A stretch of DNA of 64,000 nt from Crocosphaera sp. UHCC 0190. Lineage in GTDB: Bacteria; Cyanobacteriota; Cyanobacteriia; Cyanobacteriales; Microcystaceae. The stretch lies in contig NZ_JAYGHP010000003.1 of NCBI RefSeq assembly GCF_034932065.1, forward strand, positions 62,001-126,000, in the 5' to 3' direction. Every line of letters begins with the position of its first letter. The stretch's first letter is position 1. Positions 49,990 to 58,313 of this stretch are shown in pieces. The notes beneath the pieces are model-generated. The model made no database searches. It was not told where the DNA came from and saw nothing but the letters and a program-made list of their open reading frames with translations. Both the position numbers and the translations under genes were made by a program.

Positions 49990-50014
49990 TCAATGATAAG
50001 TTTGTAGGTATTGA
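49990..50014. promoter_or_regulatory. Possible LysR (NdhR/CcmR-type) site upstream of ndhF3
   Basis: TCAAT(G) and (T)ATTGA form an inverted repeat with a 15-base spacer, about 135 bases upstream of ndhF3. NdhR/CcmR controls the inducible ndhF3 operon in other cyanobacteria through TCAAT-type sites. The match here is weak. Confidence 0.3.
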
Positions 50015-50147
50015 CTAAATACTATGATTGGTGCATAATAAAATCTAACAAAAAAAGGATCTAGGTCATCTTTAAACAGGTAAAGTCAAGCTATCTTTCG
50101 TTAATTACTACTTATTGATTTCTAAGCGCATTTTTTGAGGAAATTTC

Positions 50148-51986
50148 ATGTTAGATTCCTTAAGCCAGACTGTCTGGTTAGTTCCTTTGTATGCCTTAAT
50201 GGGGGCATTATTAATCCTTCCCTGGTCCCCTGGTATTATTCGTCAAACAGGCCCCAGGCCATCTGGTTATATCAGCATTATCATGACTCTGGTGGCTTTA
50301 TTCCATAGTTTGTTTACTTTGGGGAATATCTGGCAAAAACCGCCTCAATATCTCTCTGCAACTTGGTTACATACCACCACGTTAGATCTTACCCTTGATC
50401 TCGAAATTTCGACAGTAACCGTTGGGGCCTTGGTGGTTATTACTGGGTTAAATTTAATGGCCCAAATTTACGCCATTGGTTACTTAGAAATGGACTGGGG
50501 ATGGGCGCGTTTTTATGCGTTAATGGCTTTATTTGAGGGGGGAATGTGTTCCCTTGTCCTTTGTAACTCCCTCTTTTTCAGTTATGTGGTGCTGGAAGTT
50601 CTCACCTTGGGAACCTATCTATTAATTGGGTTTTGGTTTAACCAGTCTTTGGTGGTGACGGGGGCCCGAGATGCGTTTTTAACGAAACGGGTTGGGGACT
50701 TAATTTTATTAATGGCCGTGGTGGCCTTATTACCCTTAGCAGGAACCTGGAATTATGATCAATTAGCCATTTGGGCAGAAACGGCTGATCTTAACCCTAC
50801 GGTTGCAACCTTACTCTGTTTAGCTTTAATTGCTGGGCCTTTGGGCAAATGCGCTCAATTTCCCTTACATTTATGGTTAGATGAGGCCATGGAAGGCCCC
50901 ATGCCCGCTACTATTCTACGGAATGGCTTAGTTGTCTCTACGGGGGCCTGGGTATTGGTTAAATTACAACCCGTTTTGACCCTATCTCCCCTAGCATTGA
51001 CGGTAATGGTGTCTGTTGGGGCTGTAACGGCAGTCGGGGCGGCTTTGATTGCGATCGCTCAAATTGATGTCAAACGTTCCCTCTCCTACACTGTGAGTGC
51101 CTATATGGGCTTAGAGTTCATTGCGGTAGGAACGGGACAAACCGAAACAGCTTTACTATTATTGTTAACCTATGCGATCGCCATGGGACTATTGGTGATG
51201 AGTATTGGGGGAATTGTTCTTAATAATATTACCCAAGATTTAACCCAATATGGCGGTTTATGGTCCCGTCGTCCCATTTCTGCTATTTGTTACTTAGTGG
51301 GTGGGGCCGCTTTAGTCGCTTTTCCTCCTTTGGGGGGGTTTTGGCCCTTGCAACAACTAGCGGAAGGGTTAGGGTCATTTTCTCCCCTATTATTTGGGGT
51401 GTTATTGGTGGTAAATGGTTTAACGGCCTTTAGTGTGGCCCGTGAGTTTAGCCTCATTTTTGGGGGTCAGCCGAAACCCATGACGGTACGTTCTCCTGAA
51501 GGGTTATGGGCTTTGGTTGTACCGATGATGGTTGTGATGGGATTTGCCCTACATTTGCCTATTTTACTGTTTAAATGGCAATTATTACCTACTTTAGAAA
51601 GTGTTAACCTATCAACGGCAGGAAGTCTGGTATTATCGACGTTAATTGGTAGTGGTGCAGCCGCCTTTATCTATTTAAGCGATCGCATTCCGAAACCTGT
51701 CCAAATTAACCCTAAATGGTTACAAGATCTCTTTGCCTATGATTTATACACCCCTCAACTTTATCGAGTAACAATTGTCGCCTTAGTTGCTATTGTTTCC
51801 AATGCGGTTAATTGGTTTGATAAATTTATTGTTGATGGGGTTGTTAATATAGTGGGAATTGCGACGCTGTTTGGGGGACAAGGCTTAAAATATAATGTCA
51901 CAGGACAAGGACAATTTTATATTTTTACCATGCTTCTTGGCTTGGCGATCTTGGTATCAATTCTTTGCTTTCCCTTATTATCCTAA
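50148..51986 (+). CDS. ndhF3: NAD(P)H dehydrogenase subunit NdhF3 (CO2 uptake NDH-1)
   Basis: A 612-residue proton-pumping antiporter-like membrane subunit with about 15 helices. It has 'FFSYVVLEVLTLGTYLLIGF' and 'FPLHLWLDEAMEGPMPATIL'. The short length and the adjacent carbonic anhydrase, ndhD and CO2-hydration gene identify it as the specialised F3/F4 type, not the respiratory NdhF1. GAGG lies seven bases before the ATG. First gene of the cluster. F3 rather than F4 is inferred from the ndhF-ndhD-cupA order. Confidence 0.9.
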   Translation: MLDSLSQTVWLVPLYALMGALLILPWSPGIIRQTGPRPSGYISIIMTLVALFHSLFTLGNIWQKPPQYLSATWLHTTTLDLTLDLEISTVTVGALVVITGLNLMAQIYAIGYLEMDWGWARFYALMALFEGGMCSLVLCNSLFFSYVVLEVLTLGTYLLIGFWFNQSLVVTGARDAFLTKRVGDLILLMAVVALLPLAGTWNYDQLAIWAETADLNPTVATLLCLALIAGPLGKCAQFPLHLWLDEAMEGPMPATILRNGLVVSTGAWVLVKLQPVLTLSPLALTVMVSVGAVTAVGAALIAIAQIDVKRSLSYTVSAYMGLEFIAVGTGQTETALLLLLTYAIAMGLLVMSIGGIVLNNITQDLTQYGGLWSRRPISAICYLVGGAALVAFPPLGGFWPLQQLAEGLGSFSPLLFGVLLVVNGLTAFSVAREFSLIFGGQPKPMTVRSPEGLWALVVPMMVVMGFALHLPILLFKWQLLPTLESVNLSTAGSLVLSTLIGSGAAAFIYLSDRIPKPVQINPKWLQDLFAYDLYTPQLYRVTIVALVAIVSNAVNWFDKFIVDGVVNIVGIATLFGGQGLKYNVTGQGQFYIFTMLLGLAILVSILCFPLLS

Positions 51987-52044
51987 AGGCTTGCTCACTA
52001 ACCATTATTTGCCTTTTCATTTAACCCATTGTTAGGAGTTTATT

Positions 52045-52764
52045 ATGAAGTCTGATTCTTCCAAATTCGATATTTCTCGTCGTAATATCCTCAAATATGG
52101 TGGGGGTTTCATCGGAACAGGATTATTAGCAGCCGCTATGGGAGTAGAAACCTTAACCCCTTCTCCTGTGGTTGCTCAAAATGATATGACCCCTGACCAA
52201 GCTTTGGCAAAATTAATGGATGGTAATAAACGTTTTGCCACCATGAAAAGCAAAAATCCAAATCAAAATTTAGTGCGTCTTCAAGAATTAGCAAAAGGAC
52301 AAAAACCCTTTGCTGCTGTTTTAAGTTGTGCTGATTCAAGAGTCCCAGTAGAAATCATTTTTGATCAAGGTTTGGGAGATATTTTTGTTTGCCGAGATGC
52401 GGGAAATATTGCCATAAAAGAAGAAGTTGGTAGCTTAGAATTTGGAACGCTAGTGTTGGGAGCAAAGATTTTATTAGTGATTGGTCATGAAAGTTGTGGA
52501 GCCGTTATTGCTACAATGAAAGGGGGTGAAGTCCCTGGTTCAATTGGTACTATTTTAGCTCAAATTGAACCCGCAATTACTGAATTTATGGGTAAACAAG
52601 ATGATGAAATGGCTGTCAGAAAAGCGGTAGAAGCCAATGTTTTACATCAAATAGAAGTCTTAAAAAGATCTCCCATTATCTCTGACTTAGTAGCTCAAAA
52701 TAAACTCAAAGTTGTTGGGGCTTATTATGATTTAGATACAGGAGAAATCAGTTTAGTTGGTTAG
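52045..52764 (+). CDS. Tat-exported beta-carbonic anhydrase (EcaB-like)
   Basis: A 239-residue beta-class carbonic anhydrase. The N-terminus carries the twin-Arg signal 'SRRNILKYGGGFIGTG' ending near 'SPVVAQND', so it should act in the periplasm or thylakoid lumen. Zinc ligands are Cys and Asp in 'LSCADSRVP' and His and Cys in 'GHESCGAV'. It sits between ndhF3 and ndhD3 in the same orientation. This suits the reported association of the luminal enzyme EcaB with CupA/CupB-type NDH-1 complexes. Confidence 0.88.
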   Translation: MKSDSSKFDISRRNILKYGGGFIGTGLLAAAMGVETLTPSPVVAQNDMTPDQALAKLMDGNKRFATMKSKNPNQNLVRLQELAKGQKPFAAVLSCADSRVPVEIIFDQGLGDIFVCRDAGNIAIKEEVGSLEFGTLVLGAKILLVIGHESCGAVIATMKGGEVPGSIGTILAQIEPAITEFMGKQDDEMAVRKAVEANVLHQIEVLKRSPIISDLVAQNKLKVVGAYYDLDTGEISLVG

Positions 52765-52806
52765 GGTTGTACTTTCAGTTTAAAAGGGTTTTATAGGAAT
52801 AATAAA

Positions 52807-54300
52807 ATGCTGAGTGCTTTACTAATTTTACCAATTGTTGGGGCGGCAATAGTTGGATTTTTGCCCCTTTCATTAGATGGCTCAAAATCACGCCAAATCA
52901 CCCTATTTTTTACGGCTTTGTCCTTTGGTTGGAGTCTTTATCTCCTACAACAATTTAATCTGAATAACCCTGGTTTTCAGTTTGAAGAATACCTACCTTG
53001 GGCAAATGCTATCGGTTTAAGTTACAGTGTAGGGGTTGATGGTTTATCTTTACCCTTACTCATTCTCAATAGCTTTCTCACGGGATTTGCTATTTTTAGC
53101 ATTGGCGAAAAAGTAGAGCGACCCCGCCTTTATTATTCCTTAATTTTGTTATGTAATGGGGGAATTGCTGGGGCATTAATGGCACAAAATTTACTTTTAT
53201 TTGTGCTATTTTATGAAGTAGAATTAATTCCCTTTTACCTCATGATTGCTATTTGGGGAGGCGAAAAAAGGGGTTATGCTTCTACTAAATTTCTGATTTA
53301 TACTGCCCTTTCAGGATTATTAGTTTTAGCCGCATTTCTCGGCATGAGTTTTCTCAGTGGTTCAGCAAATTTTGATTATCTTTCTATCCACTTAGAACAG
53401 CTTTCTCTCAATACTCGCTTAATTTTGTTGACCTTACTTTTAGTCGGGTTTGGTATCAAAATTCCCTTAGTTCCTTTACATACTTGGTTGCCTGATGCCT
53501 ACACAGAAGCATCTCCCGCCGTAACTATATTATTGGGAGGAATTTTAGCCAAATTAGGAACTTATGGTTTAATTCGTTTCGGTTTACAACTATTTCCTGA
53601 AGCTTGGTCATTAATAGCCCCTGGTTTAGCCATTATTGGCACTATTAGCGTCCTCTATGGGGCCTTAAGTGCGATCGCCCAAAAAGACATCAAACGCATG
53701 GTTGCCTATAGTTCGATCGGACACATGGGTTATATTCTCGTAGCAGCCGCAGCAGGGACAGAATTAAGCATTTTAGGGGCCGTAACCCAAATGATTAGTC
53801 ATGGCTTAATTTTAGCCCTTCTGTTCTATTTAGTGGGCATTGTGGAACGCAAAGCAGGAACCCGTGACCTGGATATTCTCAATGGGTTAATGAACCCTAT
53901 TCGCGGCTTACCTCTTACCAGTGCCTTGTTAATTTTAGCAGGGATGGGCAGCGCAGGTATTCCTGGTTTAGTGGGATTTATTGCAGAATACATGGTATTT
54001 CAAGGCAGTTTTACGGCTTTTCCTATTCCCACCTTACTTTGCATCATTGCATCAGGTTTAACGGCGGTTTACTTCGTCATTCTTTTAAATCGTACCTGTT
54101 TTGGCAAACTGGACAACCAACGGGCCTATTATCCCAAAGTCTTGGCCTCAGAGAATATTCCCGCTTTAATTCTAACTGCAACTATCATCTTTTTAGGAGT
54201 TCAACCTAATTATTTAGTCCGTTGGATCGAACCGACAACTAATACAATGGTTGCTCATTTATCGACGATTGAACAGTCGCAAATTGCAGTTAAACCTTAA
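52807..54300 (+). CDS. ndhD3: NAD(P)H dehydrogenase subunit NdhD3 (CO2 uptake NDH-1)
   Basis: A 497-residue membrane subunit homologous to Nuo M. Signature sequences are 'VLFYEVELIPFYLMIAIWGG', 'LVPLHTWLPDAYTEASPAVT' and 'KDIKRMVAYSSIGHMG'. It pairs with NdhF3 and CupA in the NDH-1MS complex, which couples plastoquinone reduction to CO2 hydration. It follows the carbonic anhydrase by 42 bp. Confidence 0.92.
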   Translation: MLSALLILPIVGAAIVGFLPLSLDGSKSRQITLFFTALSFGWSLYLLQQFNLNNPGFQFEEYLPWANAIGLSYSVGVDGLSLPLLILNSFLTGFAIFSIGEKVERPRLYYSLILLCNGGIAGALMAQNLLLFVLFYEVELIPFYLMIAIWGGEKRGYASTKFLIYTALSGLLVLAAFLGMSFLSGSANFDYLSIHLEQLSLNTRLILLTLLLVGFGIKIPLVPLHTWLPDAYTEASPAVTILLGGILAKLGTYGLIRFGLQLFPEAWSLIAPGLAIIGTISVLYGALSAIAQKDIKRMVAYSSIGHMGYILVAAAAGTELSILGAVTQMISHGLILALLFYLVGIVERKAGTRDLDILNGLMNPIRGLPLTSALLILAGMGSAGIPGLVGFIAEYMVFQGSFTAFPIPTLLCIIASGLTAVYFVILLNRTCFGKLDNQRAYYPKVLASENIPALILTATIIFLGVQPNYLVRWIEPTTNTMVAHLSTIEQSQIAVKP

Positions 54301-54316
54301 TTATTACGAGCTTAAC

Positions 54317-54376
54317 GGGCTTAATATTATTAAGCCCCTACAACTTTTGTTATATATTTGGTGGGCAATGCCCACC
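54317..54376. repeat. Two palindromes between ndhD3 and cupA
   Basis: GGGCTTAATA-T-TATTAAGCCC at 54317-54337 and GGTGGGCA-A-TGCCCACC at 54360-54376. The second is followed by CTACAGGA, which serves as the cupA ribosome site. Both lie inside the presumed operon, so they could lower or process the downstream message. Confidence 0.85.
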
Positions 54377-54393
54377 CTACAGGATAATTGACA

Positions 54394-55689
54394 ATGACAA
54401 GCACTTTAAACTTTACCAAACTTCCCCCATCTACCCATGAATTTGCTGAGGTAATTCACCGCTTAGAAGCTGGTGGTTCAATGTTACCTGATACCCCAGA
54501 GAACTTAATGCAAATTATCGGCATATATAAAGCCTATGCAGTGCCAATGGACTTCTATTGGCGGGATCTTTTATATATTGCTGAACGGGTATTTTTAGAC
54601 CCCCTTCCCTTCTTTAAATATTTCTTACCTCAAGAGTATTTAGATCTCCATAATCATTATGCTGGAGATGACGCAGATTTGAGAATTTGGCGAGGAGTAG
54701 CAACAGCCCATCCTGAATTATTAGAGTTTATGGAAAAGGGCAAAACTGGTAAACTACCAAAACTTTTTCATCATCTTAATCATGACCGCATTAACATGGA
54801 ATTTGCGGAAGCTTGTATGCGGGCCATGTTATGGCATGGTCGAGATATGGGATGGGGTAAATTTGATGCTTATCTTGATAGTGAGGAATACAAAACAAAC
54901 GCAGATAGAGCAATTAAAGCCTATTTTAAAAAGAATCCTGCTATGTTAGGACTGTATAAATTATTCCCTGATATGTTCTTGGAACAGGTTCGTCAACTTT
55001 CCTATTATTCTAATTTAGGACTATTTTGGGAAGTGATGGCCCCTGTGTTTTTTGAGATGTCAGATATTTATGATGAGGGAGGTTTTAAAGGGGTTCCTGA
55101 TGCCATGAATTTTCTAGTTAATGGTATTTTTGCTATTGCGGGTCGTCCTATTTATCATCATGTTTATATTGAGGGGAAATGTTACGAAATTATTCCTAAA
55201 TCTAAGGGGTTTACTTGGTTATATGAGGCAGCGTTACCCTACGTTGAAGCGGTATTTTATCGCACTGCTCCCTTCCGAGGAACTAAGTCTTATAATGCTC
55301 AAGCAAAACAAGTTCCTGAACAGCAAAAAGACTTTCATTATGGCATTTTATACGCTGATGTTTTCCCCGTCGGAACTGCCGGAATACCTCCCACATTGTT
55401 AATGGATGATATGTATCATTTTTTGCCAGATTACTTGATAGAATACTATCAAAAACATTGTCGTGGGGAAGATGATGTCTTGATCCAATTAGGGATTACT
55501 TTTCAGCGATCAATGTATAATGTAACTTCTGCTGTTATTCAAGCATTGAGAACTGCTTTGTTATATCCTTTAGATGATCCTAACCCCAAACATTTGCAGA
55601 AAAACCGTCAATTTTTTGAATCACAAATTGATAGATTTAAACGTCCCGAAGCCCGTTTAAGGGATGTTCAAAACCAAGAATACCGTTAA
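54394..55689 (+). CDS. cupA: CO2 hydration protein CupA (ChpY)
   Basis: A 431-residue soluble peripheral protein specific to cyanobacterial CO2 uptake NDH-1 complexes, bound to NdhD3/F3 and proposed to hold a zinc site that hydrates CO2. 'WRDLLYIAERVFLDPLPFFK', 'HHYAGDDADLRIWRG' and 'FEMSDIYDEGGFKGVPDAMN' are family sequences. The ATG is preceded by AGGA; an in-frame TTG two codons upstream is less likely. Length favours CupA over the shorter CupB. Confidence 0.9.
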   Translation: MTSTLNFTKLPPSTHEFAEVIHRLEAGGSMLPDTPENLMQIIGIYKAYAVPMDFYWRDLLYIAERVFLDPLPFFKYFLPQEYLDLHNHYAGDDADLRIWRGVATAHPELLEFMEKGKTGKLPKLFHHLNHDRINMEFAEACMRAMLWHGRDMGWGKFDAYLDSEEYKTNADRAIKAYFKKNPAMLGLYKLFPDMFLEQVRQLSYYSNLGLFWEVMAPVFFEMSDIYDEGGFKGVPDAMNFLVNGIFAIAGRPIYHHVYIEGKCYEIIPKSKGFTWLYEAALPYVEAVFYRTAPFRGTKSYNAQAKQVPEQQKDFHYGILYADVFPVGTAGIPPTLLMDDMYHFLPDYLIEYYQKHCRGEDDVLIQLGITFQRSMYNVTSAVIQALRTALLYPLDDPNPKHLQKNRQFFESQIDRFKRPEARLRDVQNQEYR

Positions 55690-55695
55690 CTGTAG

Positions 55696-55717
55696 GGTGG
55701 GCAATGCCCACCTTTTT
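55696..55717 (+). terminator. Palindrome with T-run after cupA
   Basis: GGTGGGCA-A-TGCCCACC is followed at once by TTTTT, six bases after the cupA stop. It is a good rho-independent terminator for the cluster and the third copy of this core in the window. Confidence 0.8.
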
Positions 55718-55850: not shown

Positions 55851-56249
55851 ATGATGACCAAAACACAAGCAATTGAATTTGCTAAACAATTTAACTGGAC
55901 AGGTGCTGATGCTGAAAGAGCATTTAATGGTTTGAATTTAACGGAAGCTAATGAACAAGATATTTTAATAGCATTAGCTCAATTTTCAGGACAAGAATTA
56001 TTAAATCGGCAGCGACTTCAAGCTGCACAAAGAGCCCAAGTTACTAGAAAGAAAAGTGAGATCAAACAAATAGAAACTGAATATCAACAACAAATTGAAG
56101 AAAGTCAGCAAAAAATTCAGGAAATGCGAAGTGTTTTTATTCCTGTTATTGCTCGTCTTTACAATATTTCCCAACAATTCGGATTACAAGATCCTTGGAT
56201 TGAAGCTATGTTAGAAACCTATGAACAACATCATAAAGAAGCTTCATGA
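55851..56249 (+). CDS. Coiled-coil hypothetical protein, first gene of HNH cassette
   Basis: A 132-residue protein. The N-terminal ~50 residues look like a small UBA-like helical domain ('AIEFAKQFNWTGADAERAFN'), followed by a long Gln/Glu/Lys coiled coil (about 55-105). It overlaps the next gene by 29 bp. A TATAAT lies 36 bp upstream. I do not recognise the family; the operon ends with an HNH endonuclease. Confidence 0.6.
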   Translation: MMTKTQAIEFAKQFNWTGADAERAFNGLNLTEANEQDILIALAQFSGQELLNRQRLQAAQRAQVTRKKSEIKQIETEYQQQIEESQQKIQEMRSVFIPVIARLYNISQQFGLQDPWIEAMLETYEQHHKEAS

Positions 56250-56649
56250 CGCTTCTAAAATCATGAAAAAAGAACAATATACCACACGAATACAGTTAAA
56301 AGGCTATGGTGCTAGTCAATATCAAAGTAGACTAATTACTAAAAAATTGACACCGATAGATATAGAAAAAAGGACTTATATTTATGATTTGTCTGATGTT
56401 ATTACTTCAATAAAACAATACTTAGAACGTCCTAAAATTCAGTCACAAACTCGCCGAAAACTTGAATCTATTTTAAAAGTTTTATTAGAACGCTTAGGAA
56501 ATGTTGTGACTGTGCCATTTATTCGAGGAAACGACCCGCAACTAAGCCAAGTGAGTAAACAATTATTTGATAAAATAGCTGATGTTGATCGCTATTTTTC
56601 AGAACTTAATGCAAATATAGCCACGATAAAAGGTAAATATACACCATGA
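56221..56649 (+). CDS. Unknown protein, second gene of HNH cassette
   Basis: A 142-residue basic, mostly helical protein ('ITSIKQYLERPKIQSQTRRK' and 'ISEL'-like 'FSELNANIATIKGK'). The start may be the Met 14 codons later (MKKEQYTTRIQ), which would remove the overlap with the preceding gene. Its stop overlaps the HNH start (ATGA), so the two are coupled. Not recognised. Might be a DNA-binding or specificity partner of the nuclease. Confidence 0.55.
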   Translation: MNNIIKKLHDASKIMKKEQYTTRIQLKGYGASQYQSRLITKKLTPIDIEKRTYIYDLSDVITSIKQYLERPKIQSQTRRKLESILKVLLERLGNVVTVPFIRGNDPQLSQVSKQLFDKIADVDRYFSELNANIATIKGKYTP

Positions 56650-57011
56650 ATAATAATCCAGAAATTCCCTTAGAAGAATTGACAGAAAAACTATTGAGAA
56701 CTAATCTAAAACTAGATAAATGGTTAGATAAATCACAAGATAAACTTGATGATCTTCAAGAAAAATATGCTCCCAGAACTGAGTTTAACCGTTGGCGTAA
56801 TTCTCAAGAAGGGCAAGAATGGAAAAAGCAAAAATATCGTCAACAAAATAAATTATGTCCAATTTGCAAAGAGACTATTACTAATTTAAAAGGTTCTCAT
56901 ATTGACCATATTAAACCACTTGTTCCTTATTCTTATTTAGCTTTAGATACTAATAATATGCAAGTTACTCATGCAGAGTGTAACAAGTCAAAAGGCAGAA
57001 AAATTGATTAA
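56646..57011 (+). CDS. HNH endonuclease
   Basis: A 121-residue protein. A charged helical N-terminal part (about 1-65) precedes a zinc-ribbon HNH fold: 'CPICKETI', 'GSHIDHIKPL', 'NNMQVTHAECNKSKGR'. The Cys pair and His-Asp-His are intact, so it should cut DNA with a divalent metal. It is translationally coupled to the upstream gene and is the only recognised catalytic member of the three-gene cassette. Confidence 0.85.
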   Translation: MNNNPEIPLEELTEKLLRTNLKLDKWLDKSQDKLDDLQEKYAPRTEFNRWRNSQEGQEWKKQKYRQQNKLCPICKETITNLKGSHIDHIKPLVPYSYLALDTNNMQVTHAECNKSKGRKID

Positions 57012-57911: not shown

Positions 57912-58313
57912 TTACCCCATCAAAATGACATTATCAATCACATGAATAACCCCGTTATCTGCTTCAATATTTTCCATGATAACGGTTGCATTTTTCACTT
58001 CAAAGCCATCCGAACAATCAATAGAAATAGGAGAACCTTCAACAGAAGTGACCGTCTCAACTTTTGCTAAATCAGCCTTCATTAATTTACCGGAAACCAC
58101 ATGATAACAGAGGATTCTAGACAGTTGAGGAATATTTTGTAATAAAGTGGTAATAGTGCCTGGAGGTAGTTTAGCAAAAGCTGCATCTGTTGGGGCAAAA
58201 ACCGTAAAAGGCCCAGGACTTTTTAGGGTATCTACTAAGTTAGCGGCACTCACAGCAGCCACTAAGGTTTTAAAGTTATCATTATTAACGGCAATATCAA
58301 CGATATCAGGCAT
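57912..58313 (-). CDS. Small fasciclin-domain protein, CupS-like
   Basis: A 133-residue single fasciclin domain with '[20 protein letters not shown]' and '[18 protein letters not shown]'. There is no signal peptide, so it is cytoplasmic, unlike secreted fasciclins. CupS, the small partner of the NdhF3/NdhD3/CupA complex, is a fasciclin protein of this size and is usually encoded right after cupA. Here the gene is 2.2 kb away on the opposite strand. The CupS identity is a good guess only. Confidence 0.75.

Follow-up and report, generated by a model that had tools for sequence, protein, structure and literature searches.

An EcaB-type carbonic anhydrase gene with a twin-arginine signal lies within the ndhF3-ndhD3-cupA operon of a Crocosphaera genome and recurs there among relatives

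The closest described counterpart of the protein considered here is EcaB of Synechocystis sp. PCC 6803, a carbonic anhydrase (CA) which, according to secondary accounts, interacts with CupA and CupB and is mostly associated with the thylakoid, with a minor part at the plasma membrane and a reported presence in the periplasm as well. The NDH-1MS complex for CO2 uptake is described from Thermosynechococcus in a structure paper that places CupA on the cytoplasmic side and proposes a CO2 tunnel running through NdhF3 from the luminal side (PMC6981117). Whether CupA draws its CO2 from the cytoplasm or from the lumen, and what role EcaB plays, are treated as open questions in the portions of the reviews and papers available to us. 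Here we analyze a 64,000-nucleotide stretch of Crocosphaera sp. UHCC 0190 (contig NZ_JAYGHP010000003.1, positions 62,001 to 126,000; hereafter the window), in which a gene for a twin-arginine beta-class CA lies inside ndhF3-ndhD3-cupA. This arrangement, noted in a preliminary description made from the sequence alone, is confirmed by the open reading frames, by profile matches and by its recurrence in other genomes. In the PubMed Central literature we found no statement of a CA gene within this operon, and a prior mention is possible; the interaction of EcaB with CupA and CupB is already known.

Four genes occupy positions 50148-55689, all on the forward strand and in the order ndhF3, CA, ndhD3, cupA, separated by 58, 42 and 93 bp, respectively (Table 1). 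The NdhF3, NdhD3 and CupA subfamilies, ordered on a single strand, identify an NDH-1MS operon, and both subfamilies and order are those of the Synechocystis operon, given as ndhF3-ndhD3-cupA-cupS(-cupAR) in the available text of PMC11456788. The window differs from the latter in carrying the CA gene between ndhF3 and ndhD3, and in that its cupS-like gene lies 2.2 kb downstream on the other strand. For cupA, the ATG at 54394 is the likelier start than the TTG at 54388, two codons earlier, of the open reading frame list.

The CA belongs to the beta class (PF00484), with all five zinc-site residues present (C95, D97, R99, H148 and C151), none of which varies across the 125 cyanobacterial CAs compared. 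Its closest relative of solved structure is 2a5v (E 1.9e-35) and, judged by its matches to solved beta-CAs, its fold is that of the class; the best NCBIfam model, NF011765 (carbonic anhydrase family), scores 168 bits, under its cut-off of 221. A role as carbonyl sulfide or CS2 hydrolase was set aside as less likely, since among the matches to solved structures those enzymes rank lowest (E 1e-3 and 2e-4). The N-terminus, SRRNILKYGGGFIGTGLLAAAMG...SPVVAQN, reads by eye as a twin-arginine type signal, and an xRRx motif occurs within the first 45 residues of 123 of the 125 compared proteins. Such a signal implies that the CA is located on the opposite side of a membrane from CupA. The preliminary description had placed it across the thylakoid from CupA: the opposite side is what the signal supports, and the lumen in particular is less secure given the other locations reported for EcaB. 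In some free exported CAs (L149, L153, L154, L160, L163, L173 and L186) a lipobox-like cysteine comes after the twin-arginine motif, and these may be lipoproteins exported by the twin-arginine translocation (Tat) pathway.

Gene order in related genomes, proposed from the outset as a check, proved recurrent. In a family set of 50 genomes we retrieved 30 CA loci, and in 20 of them the CA has ndhF3 immediately before it and ndhD3 immediately after it; in one more (L033, genome G023) ndhD3 follows the CA and the locus is cut by a contig end, and the remaining nine lie elsewhere. A class-wide draw of 388 genomes yielded an EcaB-type CA (counted at E <= 1e-40) in 149, and the 30 best class-level loci, seven of them common to the family set, comprise 23 with the order ndhF3-CA-ndhD3 and 7 without it. 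Context was read for these 30 and for another 60 regions whose CAs are more distant; in none of the 60 does a CA stand between ndhF3 and ndhD3. Every locus with a CA match of at least 40% was labeled as linked or free, L062 to L113 all being free. Linkage spans seven family codes plus named genera, and 10 of the 18 loci with cyanobacterial titles are linked, namely six Nostoc records, Symploca sp. SIO2C1, two Laspinema and Phormidium pseudopriestleyi; linked-gene organisms include Nostoc, Laspinema and, probably, Microcystis, which we take to be genus g10, where 11 of 12 genomes carry CupA with a linked CA and the remaining one lacks both. Since the order recurs in so many genomes, it is not a product of chance. 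In G406 two tandem CAs stand between ndhF3 and ndhD3. Genome G069 (L152) has one CA before ndhF3 and another directly after cupA, both of a different clade, in a single-strand series of CupA/B-like, SbtA-like, PII-like, CA, ndhF3, ndhD3, cupA and CA genes, with a cupS-like gene on the other strand after the second CA. An apparent CA fusion in G120 (a 562-codon open frame) was rejected, being an ordinary 234-aa CA with open frame upstream.

The CA is by no means a constant part of the operon. The preliminary description had spoken of a usual order interrupted by the CA, and both states prove common: among 41 family genomes with full-length CupA, 20 carry the linked CA, one ends at a contig edge, and 20 others, used as controls, have no linked CA. 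Nineteen of these controls keep ndhF3-ndhD3-cupA in direct succession, the aligned ends of ndhF3 and ndhD3 lying 35-426 bp apart; in the remaining one (G043), the 5 kb before cupA yielded neither ndhF3 nor ndhD3. Two such gaps hold remnants. In G021 the frame stops after the CA signal and the start of the mature protein (matching the G022 CA at E 4e-23), and in G020 17 CA codons remain (E 0.006), whereas their congener G022 has a full-length CA in the operon and in a further congener, G023, the contig end cuts the operon CA. In that genus, therefore, the gene once belonged to the operon and decayed where it stood. Class-wide, CupA is present in 137 of the 149 genomes with the CA and in 169 of the 239 without it (Fisher p 2e-7, a value that treats genomes as independent of kinship and on which we do not lean), which leaves 12 genomes that have the CA but no match to CupA.

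A tree of 130 CA sequences, from which near-duplicates, fragments and all but five non-cyanobacterial CAs were left out, unites 47 of 52 linked CAs in one clade of 58 rows (bootstrap 99, SH-like approximate likelihood ratio test 75), together with 11 free CAs. Linked and free states change 11 times on the tree against a mean of 41 under label shuffles, which shows only that the label is clustered. The Laspinema/Phormidium trio and the two G069 CAs branch outside the main clade; an independent origin of linkage in the trio is not secured, as placing it inside the main clade is not rejected (approximately unbiased test, p 0.16). Within the clade, a 20-row group (support 100/99), 16 of its rows linked and 4 free, includes the free CAs of G045, G047 and G048, from a genus to which G046, with an operon CA, and G044, without any EcaB-type match, also belong. 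The G045 gene is near RNase Z and PurU genes. As slr0050, the neighbor of ecaB (slr0051), encodes RNase Z, this genus is probably Synechocystis. If so, EcaB of Synechocystis looks like a relocated operon gene, because free CAs of that probable genus nest among linked ones. The link to EcaB drawn in the preliminary description stands to this extent: the window protein groups with EcaB-type CAs, the family for which the interaction with CupA/CupB is reported at second hand. The free CA of G048 precedes sbtA by 262 bp, with a PII-like gene after sbtA.

Signals around the locus are suggestive of, and compatible with, a single transcript, given a promoter-like site before ndhF3, short gaps, and after cupA the sole intergenic terminator-like site of the scan. 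The site before ndhF3 is among the two best of a sigma-70 scan and is recognizable by eye in L209, the nearest relative; in the 58-bp gap between ndhF3 and the CA the same scan finds no promoter-like site, and weaker forward-strand sites (9/12) occur at 51895-51923, in the 3' end of ndhF3, and at 52779-52808, in the gap between the CA and ndhD3. As the scan total is no higher than in shuffled sequence (17 sites observed, 19 expected), single promoter-like sites are not evidence alone. In the gaps on either side of the CA, conservation with L209 is found mainly at the ribosome-binding sites. A comparison of 19 ndhF3-upstream regions with NdhR-type patterns yields full palindromes in two (G019 and G008) and none upstream of the window ndhF3, and we therefore make no claim of NdhR control. 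In G024 a LysR-type gene lies directly upstream of ndhF3, which fits ccmR as described in the available text of PMC4419860.

The CA seems to have been added to an otherwise normal-looking NDH-1MS. Taking the site residues named in the Thermosynechococcus structure paper (PMC6981117), R37, Y41 and E114 of NdhF3 do not vary among the 26 sequences compared (that of the window among them), 24 of which come from CA-bearing operons; H469 of NdhF3 is present in 25, and the CupA zinc-ligand motif, with ligands assigned by spacing, in all 26. With the sites of both proteins intact, the CA does not replace CupA. We propose, with a probability of about one half, that the CA is an EcaB-type dedicated exported partner of NDH-1MS, providing CO2 where the NdhF3 tunnel would open to the lumen, and we count in favor of this the repeated position, the tandem copies, the remnants in place and the nesting of free copies among linked ones, together with the other-clade CAs flanking the G069 operon, the intact sites of the CA, CupA and NdhF3, the tunnel proposed in the structure paper and the interaction reported for EcaB. 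Co-transcription, location, docking and the direction of the CA reaction are what we infer beyond these. The CA would be expressed from the ndhF3 promoter, fold in the cytoplasm and then pass through the Tat pathway, mainly to the thylakoid lumen, where it would sit against NdhF3/NdhD3 or close to them on the luminal side. There it would interconvert CO2 and bicarbonate fast enough to keep the two in equilibrium, the protons coming from the complex (HCO3- + H+ -> CO2). CO2 drawn into the non-polar NdhF3 tunnel would thereby be replenished, and CupA at the cytoplasmic face would hydrate it, in one direction only because the proton would be pumped off.

Several observations weigh against such a partnership. 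The solved complex contains CupA and CupS, and no CA-like subunit is described in the available text (PMC6981117). Most NDH-1MS operons examined or counted are without the CA (at least 23 linked genomes among the 306 with CupA class-wide), so that the complex can clearly work in its absence, and the accessible part of PMC5472144 lists EcaB as not detected in 12 alkaliphiles, all of which have ndhF3, ndhD3 and cupA. One review has EcaB turning CO2 into bicarbonate (PMC9283085, as far as available), the reverse of the direction proposed here, and an older report, as cited in PMC9865033, called the enzyme inactive. Finally, the preliminary description had anticipated stoichiometric co-expression under low CO2, and joint induction is not seen in Microcystis PCC 7806, where the chemostat data accessible in PMC4419860 have chpY and ecaB constant and, at high CO2, a slight drop in ndhF3 only. 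High CO2 is reported to reduce EcaB protein in Synechocystis (PMC9175036, in the part available), but there ecaB appears unlinked to the NDH-1MS genes.

Three other explanations compete with the partner. The one that survives best, though we think it rather unlikely, is co-regulation only, with a periplasmic or membrane-surface CA aiding general inorganic-carbon uptake and making no contact with NDH-1MS; the periplasmic occurrence of the Synechocystis enzyme would suit it, as would the 11 main-clade rows outside the operon, one just upstream of sbtA and a PII-like gene, and the existence of a second exported CA clade beside SbtA-like genes. It sits poorly with a position between ndhF3 and ndhD3 kept over seven family codes, and with the thylakoid association and CupA/CupB interaction reported at second hand. 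A luminal CA merely co-encoded with NDH-1MS might instead serve another process, such as proton/bicarbonate supply to photosystem II or energy disposal by carbon cycling. Algal luminal CAs do serve other roles, and secondary accounts tie EcaB to redox balance at high light and high pH; linkage is repeatedly with CO2-uptake genes, however, and no photosystem II genes stand among the neighbors inspected, which makes this an improbable account. Least credible of all is a passenger gene that landed in the operon with a function not tied to the complex, for which patchy distribution, decay in G020/G021 and other locations in several genomes can be cited, but which must face a position maintained across those families, five zinc-site residues intact in every compared copy, and the G069 operon, which is flanked by CAs from another clade.

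A bolder version of the partnership, which we offer as a doubtful speculation, is that NDH-1MS and the operon CA form a bicarbonate-to-bicarbonate relay, that is, a redox-driven bicarbonate pump, and that exported beta-CAs evolve with particular importers, one clade with NDH-1MS and another with SbtA-like/PII-like systems. Luminal or periplasmic bicarbonate would be dehydrated with pumped protons, the CO2 would pass through the NdhF3 tunnel, and CupA would re-hydrate it in the cytoplasm.

Other linkages of CAs with carbon importers were also seen. The second exported beta-CA clade (23 rows, support 100/95) has an SbtA-like (Sbt_1) gene beside the CA in 22 rows. In 21 of these the SbtA-like gene precedes the CA on the same strand, 330-631 bp away; the 23rd row, L171, ends at a contig edge. 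These loci include L177, L184, L193, L165 and 18 more, and in both loci inspected a PII-like gene lies between the two, so that the whole looks like an SbtA-like/PII-like/exported-CA operon. In the window genome three beta-CA genes were found, each adjoining carbon-uptake genes. Outside the window, L208:5333-9042 on contig C3 carries SbtA-like, two PII-like, CcaA-like CA and CemA-family genes on the same strand, and at L207:8509-10646 on contig C19 cupB is directly followed by a CcaA-like CA, an adjacency present in eight of nine genomes of genus g7 (G010-G016 and G018).

Downstream of cupA, three small open reading frames at 55851-57011, the last with an HNH endonuclease domain, separate it from the cupS-like gene; they are a probable insertion, cupA and the cupS-like gene being neighbors in several relatives. 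CupS we take to be a fasciclin-type protein. By eye, a palindrome, GGTGGGCAATGCCCACC, at 54360-54376 before cupA is repeated at 55696-55712 after it, and is missing from the corresponding pre-cupA gap of L209.

Table 1. Features of the locus, in window coordinates
Feature	Position	Strand	Basis or remark
Promoter-like site upstream of ndhF3 (putative)	50011..50039	+	TTGACT-17-CATAAT; 10/12 consensus matches
ndhF3	50148..51986	+	TIGR01960 ndhF3_CO2, 968 bits (cut-off 589); R37, Y41, E114 present
Ribosome-binding-like site before CA	52032..52038	+	TTAGGAG; in part of the ndhF3-CA gap conserved with L209, by eye
EcaB-type beta-CA, 239 aa	52045..52764	+	PF00484 Pro_CA, 136 bits (cut-off 25.7)
Putative twin-arginine signal peptide	52045..52176	+	SRRNILK at 52075-52095 and hydrophobic stretch, by eye; cleavage after VVA guessed
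Ribosome-binding-like site before ndhD3	52793..52799	+	ATAGGAA; conserved with L209, by eye
ndhD3	52807..54300	+	NF005611, 909 bits (cut-off 764)
cupA (chpY)	54394..55689	+	TIGR01964 chpXY, 786 bits (cut-off 294); HHLNHDR motif
Terminator-like hairpin after cupA	55695..55712	+	
Fasciclin-domain protein, probably cupS	57912..58313	-	PF02469; homologues adjoin cupA in several relatives

Recurrent operon coupling of an exported CA with the tunnel subunit NdhF3 offers independent genetic support for a luminal route of CO2. It also suggests descent from an operon-encoded partner for the EcaB of Synechocystis, which has been studied as an enzyme on its own. Among described CAs, carboxysomal CcaA shares the beta class and PF00484 with the window protein at about 30% identity, and CcaA-like proteins are reported to be without an export signal (PMC9865033, in the part available). 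EcaB (Slr0051) stands closer, as a beta-CA with a twin-arginine motif, and the free CAs of Synechocystis-like genomes, through which the comparison was made rather than through the Slr0051 sequence itself, share a clade with the window CA; the difference is one of location, ecaB being apparently unlinked to the NDH-1MS genes and the window gene lying inside the operon. As a mechanism, the DAB complexes of chemolithoautotrophs resemble NDH-1MS in carrying out an energized, vectorial hydration of CO2. In DAB the CA-like subunit is itself the coupled hydrase, whereas here CupA would stay the hydrase and the exported CA would come as an addition.

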